Positions 1 through 12,054 of a DNA stretch of 64,000 nt are shown here, piece after piece. A program made the translations under genes and the position numbers. The DNA comes from an uncultured Alphaproteobacteria bacterium (GTDB lineage: Bacteria; Pseudomonadota; Alphaproteobacteria; Rhodobacterales; Rhodobacteraceae). The notes beneath the pieces are model-generated. The model did no database searches. It saw only the letters and a program-made list of their open reading frames with translations, and had not been told where the DNA came from. Numbering within the stretch: position 1 is the first letter of the stretch; every line of letters begins with the position of its first letter. The DNA is taken from assembly GCA_902584635.1 (NCBI GenBank), contig CACIAQ010000006.1, positions 1-64,000 on the forward strand, in the 5' to 3' direction.

Positions 1-279
1 TGCTTTAGCTTAAAAACCAAATCCATTAATACTGCTAGATGACTTTCAAGATCAATTGAGCAGAAGCTGGAAGATTATTGGTAGGGTTTTAGACTTGAGA
101 ATTTAGATATTCCTCAAGTAAGATTATCATCTAGGCCAAGCGATACACTAGATCAGGCTGGCGTAGGCTTATCTGATGCTCTTGATCTTTACCTAAAATT
201 GAAAGGATAGGGGAAAGATTATGTATTCTTTAGGACAGCAAAAAAATCTAAGATATGTTATAGCACGTTTGATAAATAG
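1..279 (+). pseudogene. N-terminal remnant of a tyrosine recombinase/phage integrase
   Basis: Frame 1 reads FSLKTKSINTAR*LSRSIEQKLEDYW*GFRLENLDIPQVRLSSRPSDTLDQAGVGLSDALDLYLKLKG*GKDYVFFRTAKKSK. This resembles the N-terminal part of alphaproteobacterial integrases (SLKTK..., LSEA.ELYL.LKG...). In-frame stops at 40, 82, 208 and 277. Confidence 0.6.
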
Positions 280-359: not shown

Positions 360-1790
360 ATGGTGATACTCACAAATGAAATGTTGGTCGTTGATTTGGA
401 TGGTACGCTACTCAAGTCTGATATTCTACATGAGTCTTTTTGGTGTGCGTTTCGCAAAAACTGGCAAACGCCTTTTTTGTCAGCTAAAGCGCTATTGCGA
501 GGGAAAGCTGCCTTAAAATCATATCTGCAATCTGAAGCCGATATTGATGTAGTTTCCTTGCCTTACGATAAGTTGGTGATTGAGTTTATCCGTAGGCATA
601 GAGAACAAGGCGGGCGGACTGCATTGGTGACGGCCTCTAATCAGATATTCGCAAAAGAAATCGCCGAACATCTTCAGATTTTTGACGAGGTGCATGGTTC
701 TGGTGTCGCACATAACCTCAAAGGCTCCAATAAAGCCTCGTTCCTTACGCAGCGCTTTGGATCCGGTGGCTTTTGCTACATGGGTGATGCAGCCGCAGAT
801 TTGGCAGTCTGGCGAGTGTCTAACAAGGTTGTGACTGTAAATTCGACACCATCTGTGCGCCTCCAAGCTGAGGCTCTTGGTAAACCATTTGAGCACTTGG
901 AAACAACCGAAAAATCCTTGCACCCCTACATCAAAGTGTTGCGCCCACATCAGTGGCTAAAGAACGTATTAATATTCCTACCCATGTTGGCAGCACATCA
1001 GCTCAATGTGTCAACGACAATGAGCAGTTTATTAGCATTTTTTGCTTTTAGCCTTGTCGCGTCCAGCGTCTATGTTCTGAACGACTTGCTTGATTTGGAT
1101 GCGGACAGAGCACACCCACGTAAACGATTGCGTCCTTTTGCTTCTGGTAATTTACCCATCAGGTTTGGCGGTTTTTTAGCATTGGCTCTACTGTTAGCAG
1201 GTATGTCACTAGCAGCTTTGCTAAGCTGGATGTCCCTACTGACACTCGCTACTTATTATTTCCTCACCAAATTGTATTCGCTATATTTGAAACGCAAGAT
1301 TATTTTGGACATTTGTGTTTTAGCATTACTTTACACAATGCGTATTGTCGCTGGGGGTGTGGCAACAAGTATTGAACTGTCATTATGGCTACTGGCATTC
1401 TTAATTTTCTTCTTTTTCTCACTCGCTGCTGTGAAGCGCCAAACCGAACTAGTGGACATGGCTGAGCGTGGTATATTGATAGCGAAAGGACGGGGCTATC
1501 AGGTAGAGGATTTACCCATCATCAGCACTGTGGGGCTTGCTGCAGGCTATATCTCTGTGCTTGTGATGGCGCTCTATCTGAACTCTACAGCTGTACGAGA
1601 ACTCTATGCCACACCAAACGCTCTTTGGGGCATTTGTTGCGTATTGCTCTACTGGTTAACACGAATGGTATTGCTCACACACCGCGGGTTAATGCATGAT
1701 GACCCCATTGTTTTTGCACTTAAAGACAGGGTTAGCCAGGGGTCCTTTTTGCTAATGTCTGGGTTTGCAATAGCAGGTGTTCTAATATGA
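360..1790 (+). CDS. HAD hydrolase-UbiA prenyltransferase fusion, decaprenyl-phosphate phosphoribosyltransferase (DPPR synthase)-like
   Basis: N-terminal HAD motif VVDLDGTLLKSD; C-terminal UbiA motifs RPHQWLKN and NDLLDLDADRAHPRKRLRPFASG; polytopic membrane C-terminus. Confidence 0.88.
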   Translation: MVILTNEMLVVDLDGTLLKSDILHESFWCAFRKNWQTPFLSAKALLRGKAALKSYLQSEADIDVVSLPYDKLVIEFIRRHREQGGRTALVTASNQIFAKEIAEHLQIFDEVHGSGVAHNLKGSNKASFLTQRFGSGGFCYMGDAAADLAVWRVSNKVVTVNSTPSVRLQAEALGKPFEHLETTEKSLHPYIKVLRPHQWLKNVLIFLPMLAAHQLNVSTTMSSLLAFFAFSLVASSVYVLNDLLDLDADRAHPRKRLRPFASGNLPIRFGGFLALALLLAGMSLAALLSWMSLLTLATYYFLTKLYSLYLKRKIILDICVLALLYTMRIVAGGVATSIELSLWLLAFLIFFFFSLAAVKRQTELVDMAERGILIAKGRGYQVEDLPIISTVGLAAGYISVLVMALYLNSTAVRELYATPNALWGICCVLLYWLTRMVLLTHRGLMHDDPIVFALKDRVSQGSFLLMSGFAIAGVLI

Positions 1791-2209
1791 AGCTATCGGT
1801 ATTGGTTATTCGCTACGCTTTATTTGCTATTCTGGCGACTCTTGCCAACCTCGCTACCCAACGTGTCGCGTTACGGTTTGGCGACAGTGGCATACTTTTC
1901 GTATTAGCGGTTGGTGCGGGAACTACAGTGGGATTGGTCATAAAATATATTTTAGACAAACGTTGGATATTTAGGGACATGAGCGTGGGTGTGAAAGCAC
2001 ACAGCAAGCGGTTTTCGCTTTACTCAGCTATGGGTCTTGTAACCACAGCGATATTTTGGGGCTTGGAAACTGTTTTTTGGTTTGTTTGGCAAACACATGC
2101 CATGCGTGAAATTGGCGCCGTGCTAGGGTTAGGCATTGGCTATGTAGTCAAATACAACTTAGATCGCCGTTATGTATTTATAGATACAGAAAAGGTGCAG
2201 GCCCAATGA
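1787..2209 (+). CDS. GtrA-family membrane protein (polyprenyl-linked sugar flippase-like)
   Basis: Four-TM small protein with GtrA-type pattern (FAILATLANLATQR...VGLVIKYILDKRWIF...GYVVKYNLDRRYVF); ATGA overlap with upstream gene. Confidence 0.85.
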   Translation: MKLSVLVIRYALFAILATLANLATQRVALRFGDSGILFVLAVGAGTTVGLVIKYILDKRWIFRDMSVGVKAHSKRFSLYSAMGLVTTAIFWGLETVFWFVWQTHAMREIGAVLGLGIGYVVKYNLDRRYVFIDTEKVQAQ

Positions 2210-3528
2210 TACTGTCGGGATGGGGACGATATCCACGCATTGACGCAAAGCTTAGCGCCCCTCGCAACGAGAAAGACCTGCGAGCGCTCGTTTTGAAAGG
2301 AAATGCCATTGCACGCGGTAATGGAAGAGCCTATGGCGACAGTGCGGTGAGTACCCAAAACACTCTCCACATGAAGTATTTTAATCGCATGTTGGCATTC
2401 GATGCTGAACATGGACAGTTGGTGGCTCAGGCAGGTGTGCTGCTGGCAGATATTATTGATGTGTTCTTGCCGCTTGGTTGGTTTCCTTACGTCACTCCCG
2501 GCACTAAGTTTGTAACATTAGGTGGAATGATTGCGGCGGATGTTCATGGTAAGAACCATCATAAGGAAGGTAGTTTTGCTAAATATGTTGAATGGATAGA
2601 CTTACTCACTAGTGACGGTAGTATTAAACGCTGCTCAGCTATTGAAAACTCCGATCTTTTTAAATGGACTTTGGGTGGCATGGGTCTTACAGGAATTGTG
2701 CTTCGCGCGGCTATTCGTTTGCGCCCCGTACAATCTGCATGGATTGAACAGCGTACCTTGGTAGCGGACAATATCGGTCATGCCATTGAACTTTTCGAAC
2801 AGTCACATGATGTGACATATTCTGTAGCATGGATTGATTGCCTTCAAAAGGGTAAATCCATCGGGCGTTCACTTATTATGCTGGGTGAGCACGCAGATGC
2901 TCTCATAGTTCCGTCAAAATATCGCAAAACACCGCTACAAATACCCCGCAAGCGCAAGCTCAGAGTCCCTCTAGAGTTTCCAAGTTGGTCATTGAACAGT
3001 CTAAGTGTTCGAGCCTTTAATGAGCTCTACTACTGGAATGGCAAACGAAAACGAGACCAGCAGTTGGTTGATTGGGACAGTTATTTCTATCCATTAGACT
3101 CCATACTGGGCTGGAACAAAATCTATGGACGGCGAGGTTTTGCTCAGTTCCAATGCGTTTTGCCACTCAAAACTGCGGATGATGGCCTGCGAGCCCTCCT
3201 TTCTGCTATTGCAAGTACAAGAGTAGGTTCGTTTTTAGCTGTTTTAAAGCGCTTTGGTGCACAGGACAGTAATTTCTCATTCCCGATGGAAGGCTATTCA
3301 CTGGCGTTAGATTTCCCCGTTAATAAGGGATCTTTGGATTTGATGAAACGATTGGACAGTATCACTCTGGAATATGGTGGTAGGTTTTATCTTGCCAAAG
3401 ACAGTCGCATGTCACGCAACGTTTTTCAGCATTCCGAACCTCGAGCAAAAGATTATTTATCATACAGGAATAAAGGGGCTATTCCTGCCGTTTTTGGTTC
3501 GGCTCAATCAGAAAGGTTGGGACTATGA
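2206..3528 (+). CDS. FAD-binding oxidoreductase, DprE1-like (decaprenylphosphoryl-ribose oxidase family)
   Basis: VTPGTKFVTLGGMIAADVHGKNHHKEGSF, GGMGLTGIVLRA, WNKIYGRRGFAQFQ, GGRFYLAKDSR all match DprE1-type sequence. Confidence 0.88.
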   Translation: MILSGWGRYPRIDAKLSAPRNEKDLRALVLKGNAIARGNGRAYGDSAVSTQNTLHMKYFNRMLAFDAEHGQLVAQAGVLLADIIDVFLPLGWFPYVTPGTKFVTLGGMIAADVHGKNHHKEGSFAKYVEWIDLLTSDGSIKRCSAIENSDLFKWTLGGMGLTGIVLRAAIRLRPVQSAWIEQRTLVADNIGHAIELFEQSHDVTYSVAWIDCLQKGKSIGRSLIMLGEHADALIVPSKYRKTPLQIPRKRKLRVPLEFPSWSLNSLSVRAFNELYYWNGKRKRDQQLVDWDSYFYPLDSILGWNKIYGRRGFAQFQCVLPLKTADDGLRALLSAIASTRVGSFLAVLKRFGAQDSNFSFPMEGYSLALDFPVNKGSLDLMKRLDSITLEYGGRFYLAKDSRMSRNVFQHSEPRAKDYLSYRNKGAIPAVFGSAQSERLGL

Positions 3529-4262
3529 GCAAAGGCATCGCTTTGATTTTGGGCGCACGTAGCGCTATCGCAATGGCAATAGCCCATCTTTTTGCCAAAA
3601 ATGGGTATGACATACAACTTGCCGCTCGAAATCCGGATAGTTTGGCAGCGGATAAATCTGACATTGAGCTACGCTATAAGGTGACTGTGACATGGCATGA
3701 TTTTGACGCTTTAAACATTGCATCACACGAGCAGTTTGTAGAACAACTTCCATTGCTACCAGACATTGCTGTATGCGCCGTAGGTTATATGGGCGATCAG
3801 ACAGAAAACGAGCGAGATATGAAAGTCACCTCAATGGTTATGCGTAGCAACTACGAAGGTCCTGCGAGTATTCTGGCTGTGCTCGCCAATAGTTTTGAGG
3901 CGAGAGGCTCAGGTTGTTTGGTTGGTATAAGCTCTGTTGCTGGCGAGCGTGGACGAGCAACAAATTATATATACGGTTCGGCCAAGGCCGGCTTCACCGT
4001 CTTTCTTTCAGGATTGCGTAACCGGCTTTCAAAAAAAAACGTCCACGTGGTAACGGTCCTGCCAGGTTTCGTTGCGACAAAGATGATTGATGGCATGGAT
4101 TTGCCTTCTAAACTCATAGGACAACCCGAAGAAGTGGCAGTTGGTGTGCTCAAAGCCGTGCAAAAGAAACAAAACGTCATTTATGTCAAGCCTATATGGC
4201 AGCTCATCATGGTGATTATAAGAAATATCCCAGAGCGCTTTTTTAAAAGGATGAATATATGA
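3525..4262 (+). CDS. Short-chain dehydrogenase, DprE2-like
   Basis: SDR fold (ILGARSAIAMAIAHLFA, SSVAGERGRATNYIYGSAKAG) and DprE2-like C-terminus (IIRNIPERFFKRMNI); ATGA-coupled to the DprE1-like gene. Confidence 0.87.
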   Translation: MSKGIALILGARSAIAMAIAHLFAKNGYDIQLAARNPDSLAADKSDIELRYKVTVTWHDFDALNIASHEQFVEQLPLLPDIAVCAVGYMGDQTENERDMKVTSMVMRSNYEGPASILAVLANSFEARGSGCLVGISSVAGERGRATNYIYGSAKAGFTVFLSGLRNRLSKKNVHVVTVLPGFVATKMIDGMDLPSKLIGQPEEVAVGVLKAVQKKQNVIYVKPIWQLIMVIIRNIPERFFKRMNI

Positions 4263-5419
4263 TTATTAGAAAAAAGCAACTCTCATCGCTCGTTATTATT
4301 TTCTTTATGGCAACAACCTATTCTTTTTTTATAATTAATAGGTGGATGGTCACGGACTTGGGCATAATGTCTTATGGAAGGGTTTGGCCGCTTTATGTTT
4401 CATGGTTTGATTTTGGGTTTTTTCGGCGCGGACTGGTGGGCACAATTTTTTCAGGGACAAATCTAAATACGATTTTTGAAAATGAATACGTTTTTGCAAT
4501 TGTAGTGCATCACTTCATAGTTACAATCTTGGTTATATTACTTGTCGTATATTGCTTCCAAAGATCAATAACTAATAGACTTTTTTTGCTAGGGCTCGCC
4601 TTTTCACCGGCTTTAATAATTCATTCCGGCTACAACACTGGCACATTAGATGTGTTCGTGTTGAGTGTTGCAGTTCTGAATATTTTATTCGTGCGTGGCA
4701 CGTTGTTGTTTTGTTTCTTGCTGTTTATCGGTGTGTTGATACACGAACTATTTATTTTTACTATTCCTGCCCAACTTTATGCGTTTTATTTTTTAGATTC
4801 TTGCAAAAAAAAACCATTTCGCTTAACTCTTTTTAATATTGCGCCAGTTATTACTGTGCTTTTAGCCGTTGCTGTGATTGCTTTGTTTGGAAAAACTGAT
4901 TTTTCAGAGGTATCTTACAATGCAATTATGAAACAGAATATCCCCAATGCGTTTAACCAACATGGGCTATGGAGTGGCTATATTGAAATTAATGGTGATA
5001 CATTTAAGGAAAATTTGAAGCACTGCACAAATAACCTAATCTCTCTCTTCGTAGATAATGGTTATCATGCCCACAAATATGGTTATCTTTTTTTTATACC
5101 AGGTGTTTTATATATAATTATTTTGACAGCTCGGGCACTACAGTTGATATCCAGTCGATTAGATATGTTTATAATTGTTTTTGCAGTGTTATTTCCTTTA
5201 TTGGCTGCTTTTGTTGCAGCAGACTTGCATAGGTGGGTGTCGTTAAGCGCAAACATGGCGCTTTTGCTTACATTGCGCTTGATTCGTGATAACGGTTCAG
5301 AAAATTCAAAGTGGAATGCTGTCATATGCATTTTTTGCTTTCTAGCCCCTTTTGGCTCTACAGACTATGACAAGCCTTTTCCAGTTCACCGATTTGCTTT
5401 GGAAAAGCTTCAAAACTAA
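4259..5419 (+). CDS. Polytopic membrane protein of unknown family, candidate GT-C-type glycosyltransferase
   Basis: 386 aa, many hydrophobic segments; SWFDFGFFRRGLVGT in the first extramembrane loop; position equivalent to aftA downstream of dprE2. Confidence 0.6.
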   Translation: MIIRKKQLSSLVIIFFMATTYSFFIINRWMVTDLGIMSYGRVWPLYVSWFDFGFFRRGLVGTIFSGTNLNTIFENEYVFAIVVHHFIVTILVILLVVYCFQRSITNRLFLLGLAFSPALIIHSGYNTGTLDVFVLSVAVLNILFVRGTLLFCFLLFIGVLIHELFIFTIPAQLYAFYFLDSCKKKPFRLTLFNIAPVITVLLAVAVIALFGKTDFSEVSYNAIMKQNIPNAFNQHGLWSGYIEINGDTFKENLKHCTNNLISLFVDNGYHAHKYGYLFFIPGVLYIIILTARALQLISSRLDMFIIVFAVLFPLLAAFVAADLHRWVSLSANMALLLTLRLIRDNGSENSKWNAVICIFCFLAPFGSTDYDKPFPVHRFALEKLQN

Positions 5420-5427
5420 GGTGTACC

Positions 5428-5724
5428 GTGCAAATCTATATGTGGACCTGTTTTTCTGAAACCAACACATTAACAAAATTATATGTGATCAACGATTCCA
5501 TGCACAAAGTCATAGATATTATATGCCCAATTTTTTTTCATTCGTTTAGGCATAGTTTTATAAAAAAATTACGTAATTTAGACTGTCCTTTTGACATTAT
5601 TGGTAGGTTAGGGGAGTGGATTGCCTCTGGGGAAGGGCAGATATATGGCAAAGGTTATGATTTAAATGTACTTAGTAGGTGGATGTTAAAAGTAGATAGC
5701 AAGGTACTGAACAAAATTGAGTAG
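5428..5724 (+). pseudogene. C-terminal remnant of a tyrosine recombinase/phage integrase
   Basis: FFHSFRHSFIKKLRNLDCPFDIIGRLGEWIASGEGQIYGKGYDLNVLSRWM matches the integrase catalytic C-terminus (HxxRH ... GYG.GY). The catalytic domain is incomplete (no upstream R/K box). Confidence 0.75.
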
Positions 5725-6087
5725 TCCAACTAACCCGAGTGCCATCATTGTTAGAAATATACCTCCCCCTCGGAGAATAATACTTTTTCTCAACATGAAA
5801 GAAAACAATATGCCGTGCATTAATCTTCCAATCATAAACATAATAGCTAGACTATGAAGCATATGATTATGTGTTCCAGCTTCTTCGGCAAGATAAAGTA
5901 AAATAAAAAATAAGGGGGCATACTCAATAAAGTTTGCATGACCTCTCACAACCCTATGAACTATCTCTTCATTATCTTTTCCGTAACTAATGAAGTTGAA
6001 AAGAGGGTTTCCTCTAATAGCAAATATTCTAACTGTCAAAAGAAGAAAGAAACCAGTCGCCAAAGATGTATAAAGTTGAGTTATCAT
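5686..6087 (-). CDS. MAPEG-family (YecN-like) membrane protein
   Basis: RVFAIRGNP..., VRGHANFIEYAPLFFILL, GRLMHGI typical of MAPEG proteins. Confidence 0.85.
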   Translation of the reverse strand: MITQLYTSLATGFFLLLTVRIFAIRGNPLFNFISYGKDNEEIVHRVVRGHANFIEYAPLFFILLYLAEEAGTHNHMLHSLAIMFMIGRLMHGILFSFMLRKSIILRGGGIFLTMMALGLVGLLNFVQYLAIYF

Positions 6088-6260
6088 TTTTTTTTATTAC
6101 CTAATTGCATAAACACCTTTAAATGATAATAAATCAGTGCTTTAGGTCAAATAAGTTATGACAGAGGGGATTAGATTTAGATGCTCCAAAACCTGACAGA
6201 AAAGAAAAGTTTTTGAGAAAATAAAACCACATTTAGTTTTTTATGCTGGTCTAGTGAATT

Positions 6261-9926: not shown

Positions 9927-11195
9927 ATGAGTAAGTCTGGATCGACATCTAATAAAAATACGCTCTTTTGTTCTTTTTGTGGTAAAAGCCAGCATGAAGT
10001 GAAGAAGCTTATAGCTGGACCAACAGTGTTTATATGTGATGAGTGTGTTGAATTATGCATGGATATTATTAAAGAAGAGGTTAAGACAAGCGAAGGGAAG
10101 GATGCAAAATCCCTAATTCCTGCTCCTAAAGAAATTTTTGAGGTATTGAATGACTATGTAATCGGGCAGACTTCTGCTAAGAAAATTTTATCTGTAGCAG
10201 TTCATAATCATTATAAGCGAATAGGGTACTCTCCCAAAAAGGGAGATGTAGAACTACAGAAATCAAATATTATGCTTATAGGGCCGACTGGCTGTGGCAA
10301 AACTCTTCTTGCTCAAACACTAGCGCGTATTTTGGATGTTCCATTTACTATGGCAGATGCTACTACTCTTACAGAAGCAGGTTACGTAGGAGAAGATGTT
10401 GAAAATATTATACTCAAATTATTACAACAGGCTGACTATAATGTAGAAAAGGCACAGAGAGGGATTGTCTACATAGATGAAATCGATAAGATCAGTCGAA
10501 AGACTGATAACCCATCAATTACGAGAGATGTATCTGGTGAAGGCGTTCAGCAAGCTCTTTTGAAGATCATGGAGGGTACTGTTGCTTCTGTGCCGCCTCA
10601 AGGCGGACGAAAACATCCTCAGCAAGAGTTTCTACAAGTTGATACAACTAATATTCTCTTTATTTGTGGAGGTGCCTTCGCCGGTCTTGAAAAAGTAATT
10701 TCTTCGAGAGGTGAATCTAAGAGTATAGGTTTTGGAGCTGATGTTAGTGGCCCAGATAGTAGAAAAATTGGAGATATAATTAGCGATGTTGAGCCTCAGG
10801 ATCTTTTAAAGTTTGGACTTATCCCTGAATTCGTTGGTAGGTTGCCTGTTGTAGCAACCTTAAATGATTTGAATATCGAAGCTATGATCAAAATATTGTC
10901 AGAACCAAAGAATGCACTTGTCAAACAATTCAAAAAATTATTTGAACTAGAGGGTGTAAAGCTCACAATCACTGAGGAGGCGCTGAAAAGTATCGCAAAT
11001 AAGGCAATAAAGCGTAAAACAGGTGCTAGAGCTTTACGTTCTATATTAGAGAAGCTTTTATTGGATTCAATGTTTGAATTGCCTTCATTACAATCGGTTG
11101 AGGAAATAGTAGTAAACGAAGACGCGGTCGATAAAGATACCGAGCCATTGTTGATATATAGCGAAAGTTCTGAGGAACCCGCTTCTGCGTCTTAG
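9927..11195 (+). CDS. clpX: ATP-dependent Clp protease ATP-binding subunit ClpX
   Basis: Zinc finger [26 protein letters not shown], Walker [17 protein letters not shown]. Confidence 0.98.
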
Positions 11196-11618: not shown

Positions 11619-12054
11619 TACTCTTGATGCTTTGCTTGGTTTCGTAATATTATTGATTACTGGTTTATTTGTTTTTTATGTTTATGTAACAGTCGATAAT
11701 AAATTTTTCAATGCCGAACTTTTTATCTTGAAAGCCCGTTTTGAGAATATAGATGGGATAGTAGTAGGAAGCAAAATAAAGATGTCCGGGGTAAATATTG
11801 GGTCAGTTAAAAGTATTTCAATAGATCCAGAGAGCTTCTATGCAATAGTAACGATGGGTTTTGATAAGGAATTTAATTTTCCAGACGACACTGAAGCCTC
11901 TGTCCAACTGGAGGGTCTATTAGGAGGTAGCTATATATCGATCCTACCTGGGGGCTCAGATGTTATGTTATTAAATGATCAAGAGATTTTGTATACACAG
12001 GGCTCTACAAGTCTTTTAAACTTGATGCTTAAATTCGCGAATACCAGTAACTAA
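11608..12054 (+). CDS. mlaD: MlaD-family outer membrane lipid asymmetry protein
   Basis: N-terminal TM; MCE domain ARFENIDGIVVGSKIKMSGVNIGSVKSI; LEGLLGGSYISILPGG. Confidence 0.92.
   Translation: MKVNTLDALLGFVILLITGLFVFYVYVTVDNKFFNAELFILKARFENIDGIVVGSKIKMSGVNIGSVKSISIDPESFYAIVTMGFDKEFNFPDDTEASVQLEGLLGGSYISILPGGSDVMLLNDQEILYTQGSTSLLNLMLKFANTSN

Follow-up and report, generated by a model that had tools for sequence, protein, structure and literature searches.

A stretch of 64,000 nucleotides (positions 1 to 64,000 of the forward strand of contig CACIAQ010000006.1, assembly GCA_902584635.1, from an uncultured bacterium of the Rhodobacteraceae), called the window here as a whole, carries at 360-5419 of its forward strand a cassette of five open reading frames (ORFs), each with a 4-base overlap with the next (Table 1). 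Judged from the protein families encoded, the cassette very probably makes a polyprenyl-phosphate-D-arabinofuranose donor and transfers the sugar, and it could with good confidence be assigned to the self-contained D-arabinofuranosylation systems of the noeCNHOP or three-component type. The sugar-making half is of a known, widespread kind. Two observations are new here. The cassette is an insertion: its five genes stand where the central part of a tyrosine-recombinase gene, now decayed, would be. The family of the last gene (gene 5), which has no name, turns up next to the module again in genomes of other orders and phyla.

Table 1. Features of the five-gene cassette and its flanks (positions in the window).
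Feature	Position	Strand	Basis
Left remnant of tyrosine-recombinase gene, codons ~37-119 of intact relative	1..258	+	With in-frame stops
HAD phosphatase-UbiA fusion (noeC / ORF15-like): polyprenyl-phosphate phosphoribosyltransferase and putative 5'-phosphatase	360..1790	+	NF006088, PF12710, PF01040, 8j8j, motifs
GtrA-family membrane protein, probable flippase for lipid-linked sugar (noeN position)	1787..2209	+	NF037976; IRBG74 GtrA
DprE1-like flavin adenine dinucleotide (FAD) oxidase (noeH), predicted 2'-oxidation of lipid-linked ribose	2206..3528	+	NF053785; M. tuberculosis DprE1
DprE2-like short-chain dehydrogenase/reductase (SDR) (noeO), predicted reduction to arabino epimer	3525..4262	+	NF005489; PDB 21gq_C; S-Y-K triad
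Gene 5, multi-pass membrane protein where noeP stands in noeCNHOP; candidate terminal arabinosyltransferase	4259..5419	+	Family alignment, recurrence beside module
Right remnant of same tyrosine-recombinase gene, codons 327-388	5533..5718	+	DNA match 5537-6155 to L146/L147
Small membrane protein gene, MAPEG-like by eye, accompanies recombinase in G007/G018; conserved insertion flank	5686..6087	-	Genus-mate identity

The donor half was supported because its proteins gave full-length matches and kept their catalytic residues. The HAD-UbiA protein passed the NCBIfam model NF006088 (610 bits, cutoff 351) and contained the Pfam domains HAD (PF12710) and UbiA (PF01040), and its best PDB match was the decaprenyl-phosphate phosphoribosyltransferase 8j8j (5.4e-31). 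The fused HAD part had the DLDGT (at 12) and GDxxxD (GDAAAD at 142) motifs of a 5'-phosphatase, and the UbiA part had the Asp-rich motif of UbiA-type phosphoribosyltransferases (NDLLDLDAD at 241) together with YSLYLKRKIILD at 306. The GtrA protein passed NF037976 (168 bits, cutoff 50). M. tuberculosis DprE1 was the best PDB match of the DprE1-like protein over its full length (4e-77); His132 and Lys418 of the former, presumably catalytic, aligned with H114 and K398, and Cys387 and Asn385 were replaced by Ala and Ser. Cys387 is the residue to which benzothiazinones bind covalently in M. tuberculosis DprE1. The DprE2-like protein passed the SDR model NF005489 (338 bits, cutoff 267), matched DprE2 (21gq_C) best in the PDB (2.6e-27) and kept the S-Y-K triad of SDR enzymes as S137, Y150 and K154. 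Both proteins are called "-like" because the equivalog cutoffs of NF053785 and NF053786 were not reached. The first-pass annotation had named the same five genes in this order and had seen in them a DPPR-synthase-like, DprE1 and DprE2 module with GtrA, which agreed with the Pfam, NCBIfam and PDB searches and the motifs; its idea of a compact polyprenyl-phosphate-pentose cassette serving an envelope acceptor is also favoured by these matches.

In the proposed route, 5-phosphoribose would be transferred from phosphoribosyl pyrophosphate to polyprenyl phosphate (probably undecaprenyl phosphate) by the UbiA part, and the 5'-phosphate would be removed by the fused HAD part. The DprE1-like and DprE2-like enzymes would epimerize C2' to give polyprenyl-P-beta-D-arabinofuranose, which could be helped to the periplasmic face by the GtrA protein. 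Gene 5, as a multi-pass enzyme, would then transfer arabinofuranose to an envelope acceptor, which may be O-antigen, capsule, or another surface glycan or protein. Since the enzymes belong to established families, the first four reactions and the arabinose product are very probably as described.

Pentofuranose systems of this sort were generalized in 2024, with DprE1/E2 homologues in candidate systems for glycans containing arabinofuranose (Araf) (PMC11127046). The link to noe genes drawn in the first-pass annotation was borne out, as noeCNHOP (noeCHOP in Azorhizobium; symbiosis plasmid pSym of Agrobacterium pusense IRBG74, NC_022536) has the same order of UbiA, GtrA, DprE1, DprE2 and a polytopic protein, the first four being 55%, 50%, 57% and 62% identical between IRBG74 and the cassette. 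The IRBG74 UbiA protein matched the UbiA part only and was without HAD, whereas the cassette has the fusion; the last protein had no detectable similarity to gene 5; and nod genes adjoin the IRBG74 operon, while none was present in the cassette. Deletion of noeP on this plasmid abolished Nod-factor arabinosylation (PMC5080398). By gene order, noeN of IRBG74 is the GtrA-family gene compared above (L133, 8582-9004). A phosphatase was proposed for noeN (PMC5080398), but since it is a GtrA-family gene, its product is more likely a flippase component.

The three-component systems of Citrobacter youngae O1/O2 (GT136) likewise possess a HAD-UbiA fusion, a flippase, a multi-pass last enzyme and an auxiliary epimerase, and the Citrobacter fusion ORF15 makes and dephosphorylates lipid-linked ribose (PMC11127046). 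They use a MATE flippase and GT136, whereas the cassette has GtrA and the unnamed family; DprE1/E2 are found in the cassette, against either no epimerase or the SDR ORF13 in Citrobacter. In Pseudomonas paraeruginosa, the D-Araf genes PSPA7_6245-6251 modify pilin (PMC12369383), and the donor pathway is of the same kind when compared by description (PMC11127046, PMC12369383). TfpW there is pilin-specific and encoded with the pilin gene.

DPPR synthase (Rv3806c), DprE1 and DprE2 of M. tuberculosis are the nearest solved structures to the cassette proteins, and Rv3789-Rv3792 of that species have the order given in the first-pass annotation. The M. tuberculosis phosphatase Rv3807c is separate and unrelated (PMC11127046), in contrast to the fused HAD of the cassette, and the DprE1 of that species, with Cys387 in place of Ala, was distant from the DprE1-like protein in the tree described below.

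GTDB genomes were scanned with the DprE1-like protein, and 80 loci were kept. The top loci belonged to Rhodobacteraceae, Agrobacterium, Rhizobium, Hyphomonadaceae, Thermosynechococcus and Pelagibacteraceae (52-63% identity). The order HAD-UbiA, GtrA, DprE1, DprE2 was common to most alphaproteobacterial loci and Thermosynechococcus, and was seen in Rhodobacteraceae, Rhizobiaceae and Hyphomonadaceae; rhizobial and Rhodobacterales plasmids also bear the module. DprE1-like genes existed in 49 of 385 sampled Alphaproteobacteria genomes, own genome counted (E 1e-40). In the DprE1 tree the window fell inside an alphaproteobacterial clade (support 98), with Pelagibacteraceae as its neighbour (support 91, below the 95 mark), and M. 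tuberculosis formed a long branch outside the clade, although the tree was made by a quick method and the placement of long branches is unsure. The donor module is not peculiar to mycobacteria, and in Alphaproteobacteria it is nothing unusual. The first-pass annotation had presented it as a "mycobacterial-type" surprise in this class, which does not hold in view of these counts and of the distance to M. tuberculosis, and a special tie to mycobacteria was ruled out by the tree. In Pelagibacteraceae (L033, L035, L038-L041), UbiA, DprE1 and DprE2 genes occurred with no HAD fused to UbiA and no GtrA match next to them; despite this, their DprE1 grouped beside that of the window.

The five-gene cassette is an insertion that was very probably acquired horizontally, because its guanine-plus-cytosine (GC) content is 45% vs 35%, it is absent from 21 genus-mates and it interrupts a recombinase gene. 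The GC content was 45-46% for genes 1-4, 36% for gene 5, 34-39% for the right-hand neighbours and 35% for the window, and the step falls within the cassette, where gene 4 meets gene 5. Neither the DprE1 module nor the gene 5 family was found in any of the 21 genus-mates. The corresponding locus in two of them, G007 and G018, consisted of a tyrosine-recombinase gene and, after it in convergent orientation, a small membrane-protein gene, with no operon. Positions 1-258 and 5537-6155 of the window matched the two ends of this locus with 82-89% identity, order and orientation being kept, and the 5.28-kb cassette stands in place of recombinase codons ~120-326. The left remnant shared 78% identity with residues 37-119 of the intact G018 recombinase and contained one TGA and two TAG stops, its DNA being 82-85% identical to the genus-mate loci (L146/L147); the right remnant was 74% identical to residues 327-388. 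The recombinase may have decayed before the cassette was inserted, since the G007 copy also carries stops. The small membrane protein was 95% identical in G007 and 86% in G018, and the other 19 genus-mates gave no match to it. The bacterial family concerned was taken to be Rhodobacteraceae in the GTDB sense, as ClpX of its members was 84-90% identical to Leisingera and Ruegeria; the window's own genus was divergent (74-76%). The core of the first-pass reading holds, but that annotation had missed the recombinase insertion, the step in GC content and the fact that the gene 5 family recurs with the module.

At the G007 locus (L146), a 98-base inverted repeat (~10282-10379 and 11900-11997; arms 93% identical) encloses the recombinase and small membrane-protein genes. 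This unit may be a small mobile cassette, since the genes outside the repeat differ between genomes. Part of the right repeat arm is retained at ~6081-6155 of the window, and the contig starts ~100 bases inside the left arm.

For the role of terminal arabinosyltransferase, gene 5 is the best candidate, and its genomic context makes this role rather probable. Its relatives were found in Alphaproteobacteria and, among the DprE1 loci, also in the cultured Algoriphagus vanfongensis (L074) and a Desulfobacteraceae metagenome-assembled genome (L080), lying directly after DprE2 in both, loci that had been fetched with DprE1 only. In other genomes a relative was located downstream of a complete module on the same strand with one membrane-protein ORF between (L151), adjoined a complete module on the opposite strand near dTDP-rhamnose genes (L154), or overlapped the end of a UbiA gene (L149). 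DprE1 was present in 9 of the 11 other gene 5 carrier genomes of both samples, vs 49/385 in the class; within the class sample it was present in 4/6 other carriers vs 48/384 genomes (Fisher one-sided p = 0.003, which takes no account of genome size or kinship). An alignment of 17 family members (A2) revealed invariant R57, H162, D322 and R325 and near-invariant G53, G61 and E163. The G53-R57-G61 motif would be situated in the loop that follows membrane helix 1; active-site residues of GT-C enzymes are often in this loop, where an acidic residue is common but not universal. With about even chances, gene 5 represents a new transferase family using polyprenyl-P-D-arabinofuranose, spread over Alphaproteobacteria, Bacteroidota and Desulfobacterota, working in cis or in trans to the module and having no described member.

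Some further observations concern the family itself. The relative in L080 (2319-3596) was broken over two frames, as a pseudogene or by a sequencing error, and one genome of the same bacterial family as the window carried three tandem copies (L118, 6560-10394). No relatives were found in viral contigs and plasmids, and comparison of gene 5 with 66 clusters of membrane proteins near DprE1 loci (phmmer, hhalign) gave no homology except to family members. A further hit (L120) was dropped, being an ORF with one predicted transmembrane segment, unlike the family.

Several results weigh against the reading of the cassette as a complete arabinosylation system with gene 5 as its transferase. Neither the DprE1-like nor the DprE2-like protein reached its equivalog cutoff. 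Gene 5 had no significant Pfam, NCBIfam or PDB match in the protein search, and its family profile gave nothing significant against the PDB. The AftA-like GT-C enzyme implied in the first-pass annotation found no support in sequence, no match to any GT-C family or structure having appeared in Pfam, NCBIfam or PDB. The AlphaFold models were unusable (predicted local distance difference test score, pLDDT, 43 for gene 5 alone and 37 for the Algoriphagus relative with a three-row alignment). Only the position is shared with NoeP (BLASTP E 0.78, hhalign probability 0.4%). In several genomes the relative is located at a great distance from the module (L114-L118), one genome (G416) has a relative without DprE1, and DprE1 is frequent in the bacterial family concerned (7/15), which partly explains the family-level co-occurrence (p ~0.02). 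No acceptor gene was recognizable in the cassette. The 36% GC of gene 5 is host-like, unlike that of genes 1-4; a gene native to the genus was nevertheless ruled out, the family being in none of the other genus-mates. Genes 1-4 could make polyprenyl-P-arabinofuranose without gene 5 being the transferase, which would then be encoded elsewhere in the genome; gene 5 would be a polymerase (EpsG/Wzy-like) or serve as a second transporter. The lack of a GT-C match in sequence or fold fits this, as do weak contacts of 2 of the 17 family members with EpsG (best 0.007) and of three members with NF046093 "cell surface glycopolymer formation" (best 3e-7, well short of the cutoff). It is nonetheless a minority possibility, since gene 5 occupies the slot of the genetically required transferase gene of noeCNHOP and its family recurs there in other phyla, GtrA is already the flippase candidate, and the frequency of DprE1 in other carriers, some with gene 5 at a distance, fits a user of the donor.

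A different pentofuranose as product, with ribofuranose (Ribf) kept or xylofuranose (Xylf) formed and the oxidoreductases acting elsewhere or inactive, seems improbable. It would suit the DprE1-like protein, whose top model NF053785 scored 397.6 bits under an equivalog cutoff of 500, and the DprE2-like protein, for which the DprE2 model NF053786 came second with 184.8 bits under a cutoff of 250, and related systems do make Ribf and Xylf (PMC11127046). Against it, Xylf systems use the GalE-like SDR epimerase ORF13 and not DprE1/E2 (PMC11127046), the equivalents of DprE1 His132 and Lys418 and the SDR triad are kept, and the relatives in rhizobia are associated with D-arabinosylation of Nod factors (PMC5080398). 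An assembly or binning artefact, in which a high-GC alphaproteobacterial fragment was joined at a contig end, might be thought of for a locus at the first bases of contig C6 in a draft genome of 2.0 Mb (92 contigs, 77.5% complete), with GC stepping from 45% to 36% and the module in 0/21 genus-mates. Such a chimera is very improbable, because both flanks match the same G007/G018 recombinase locus in order and orientation and a chimera would not restore both; in addition, the GC step falls inside the cassette.

The donor half adds one more example of genome-to-genome movement by an arabinosylation module that is widespread in Gram-negative bacteria, and the interrupted recombinase locus allows related genomes with and without a surface-glycan cassette to be compared clearly. 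The cassette is compact, and donor synthesis and transfer could be rebuilt from its five genes in a laboratory strain. Few arabinofuranosyltransferases are known outside mycobacteria, and the gene 5 family would give a sequence handle on this transfer there.

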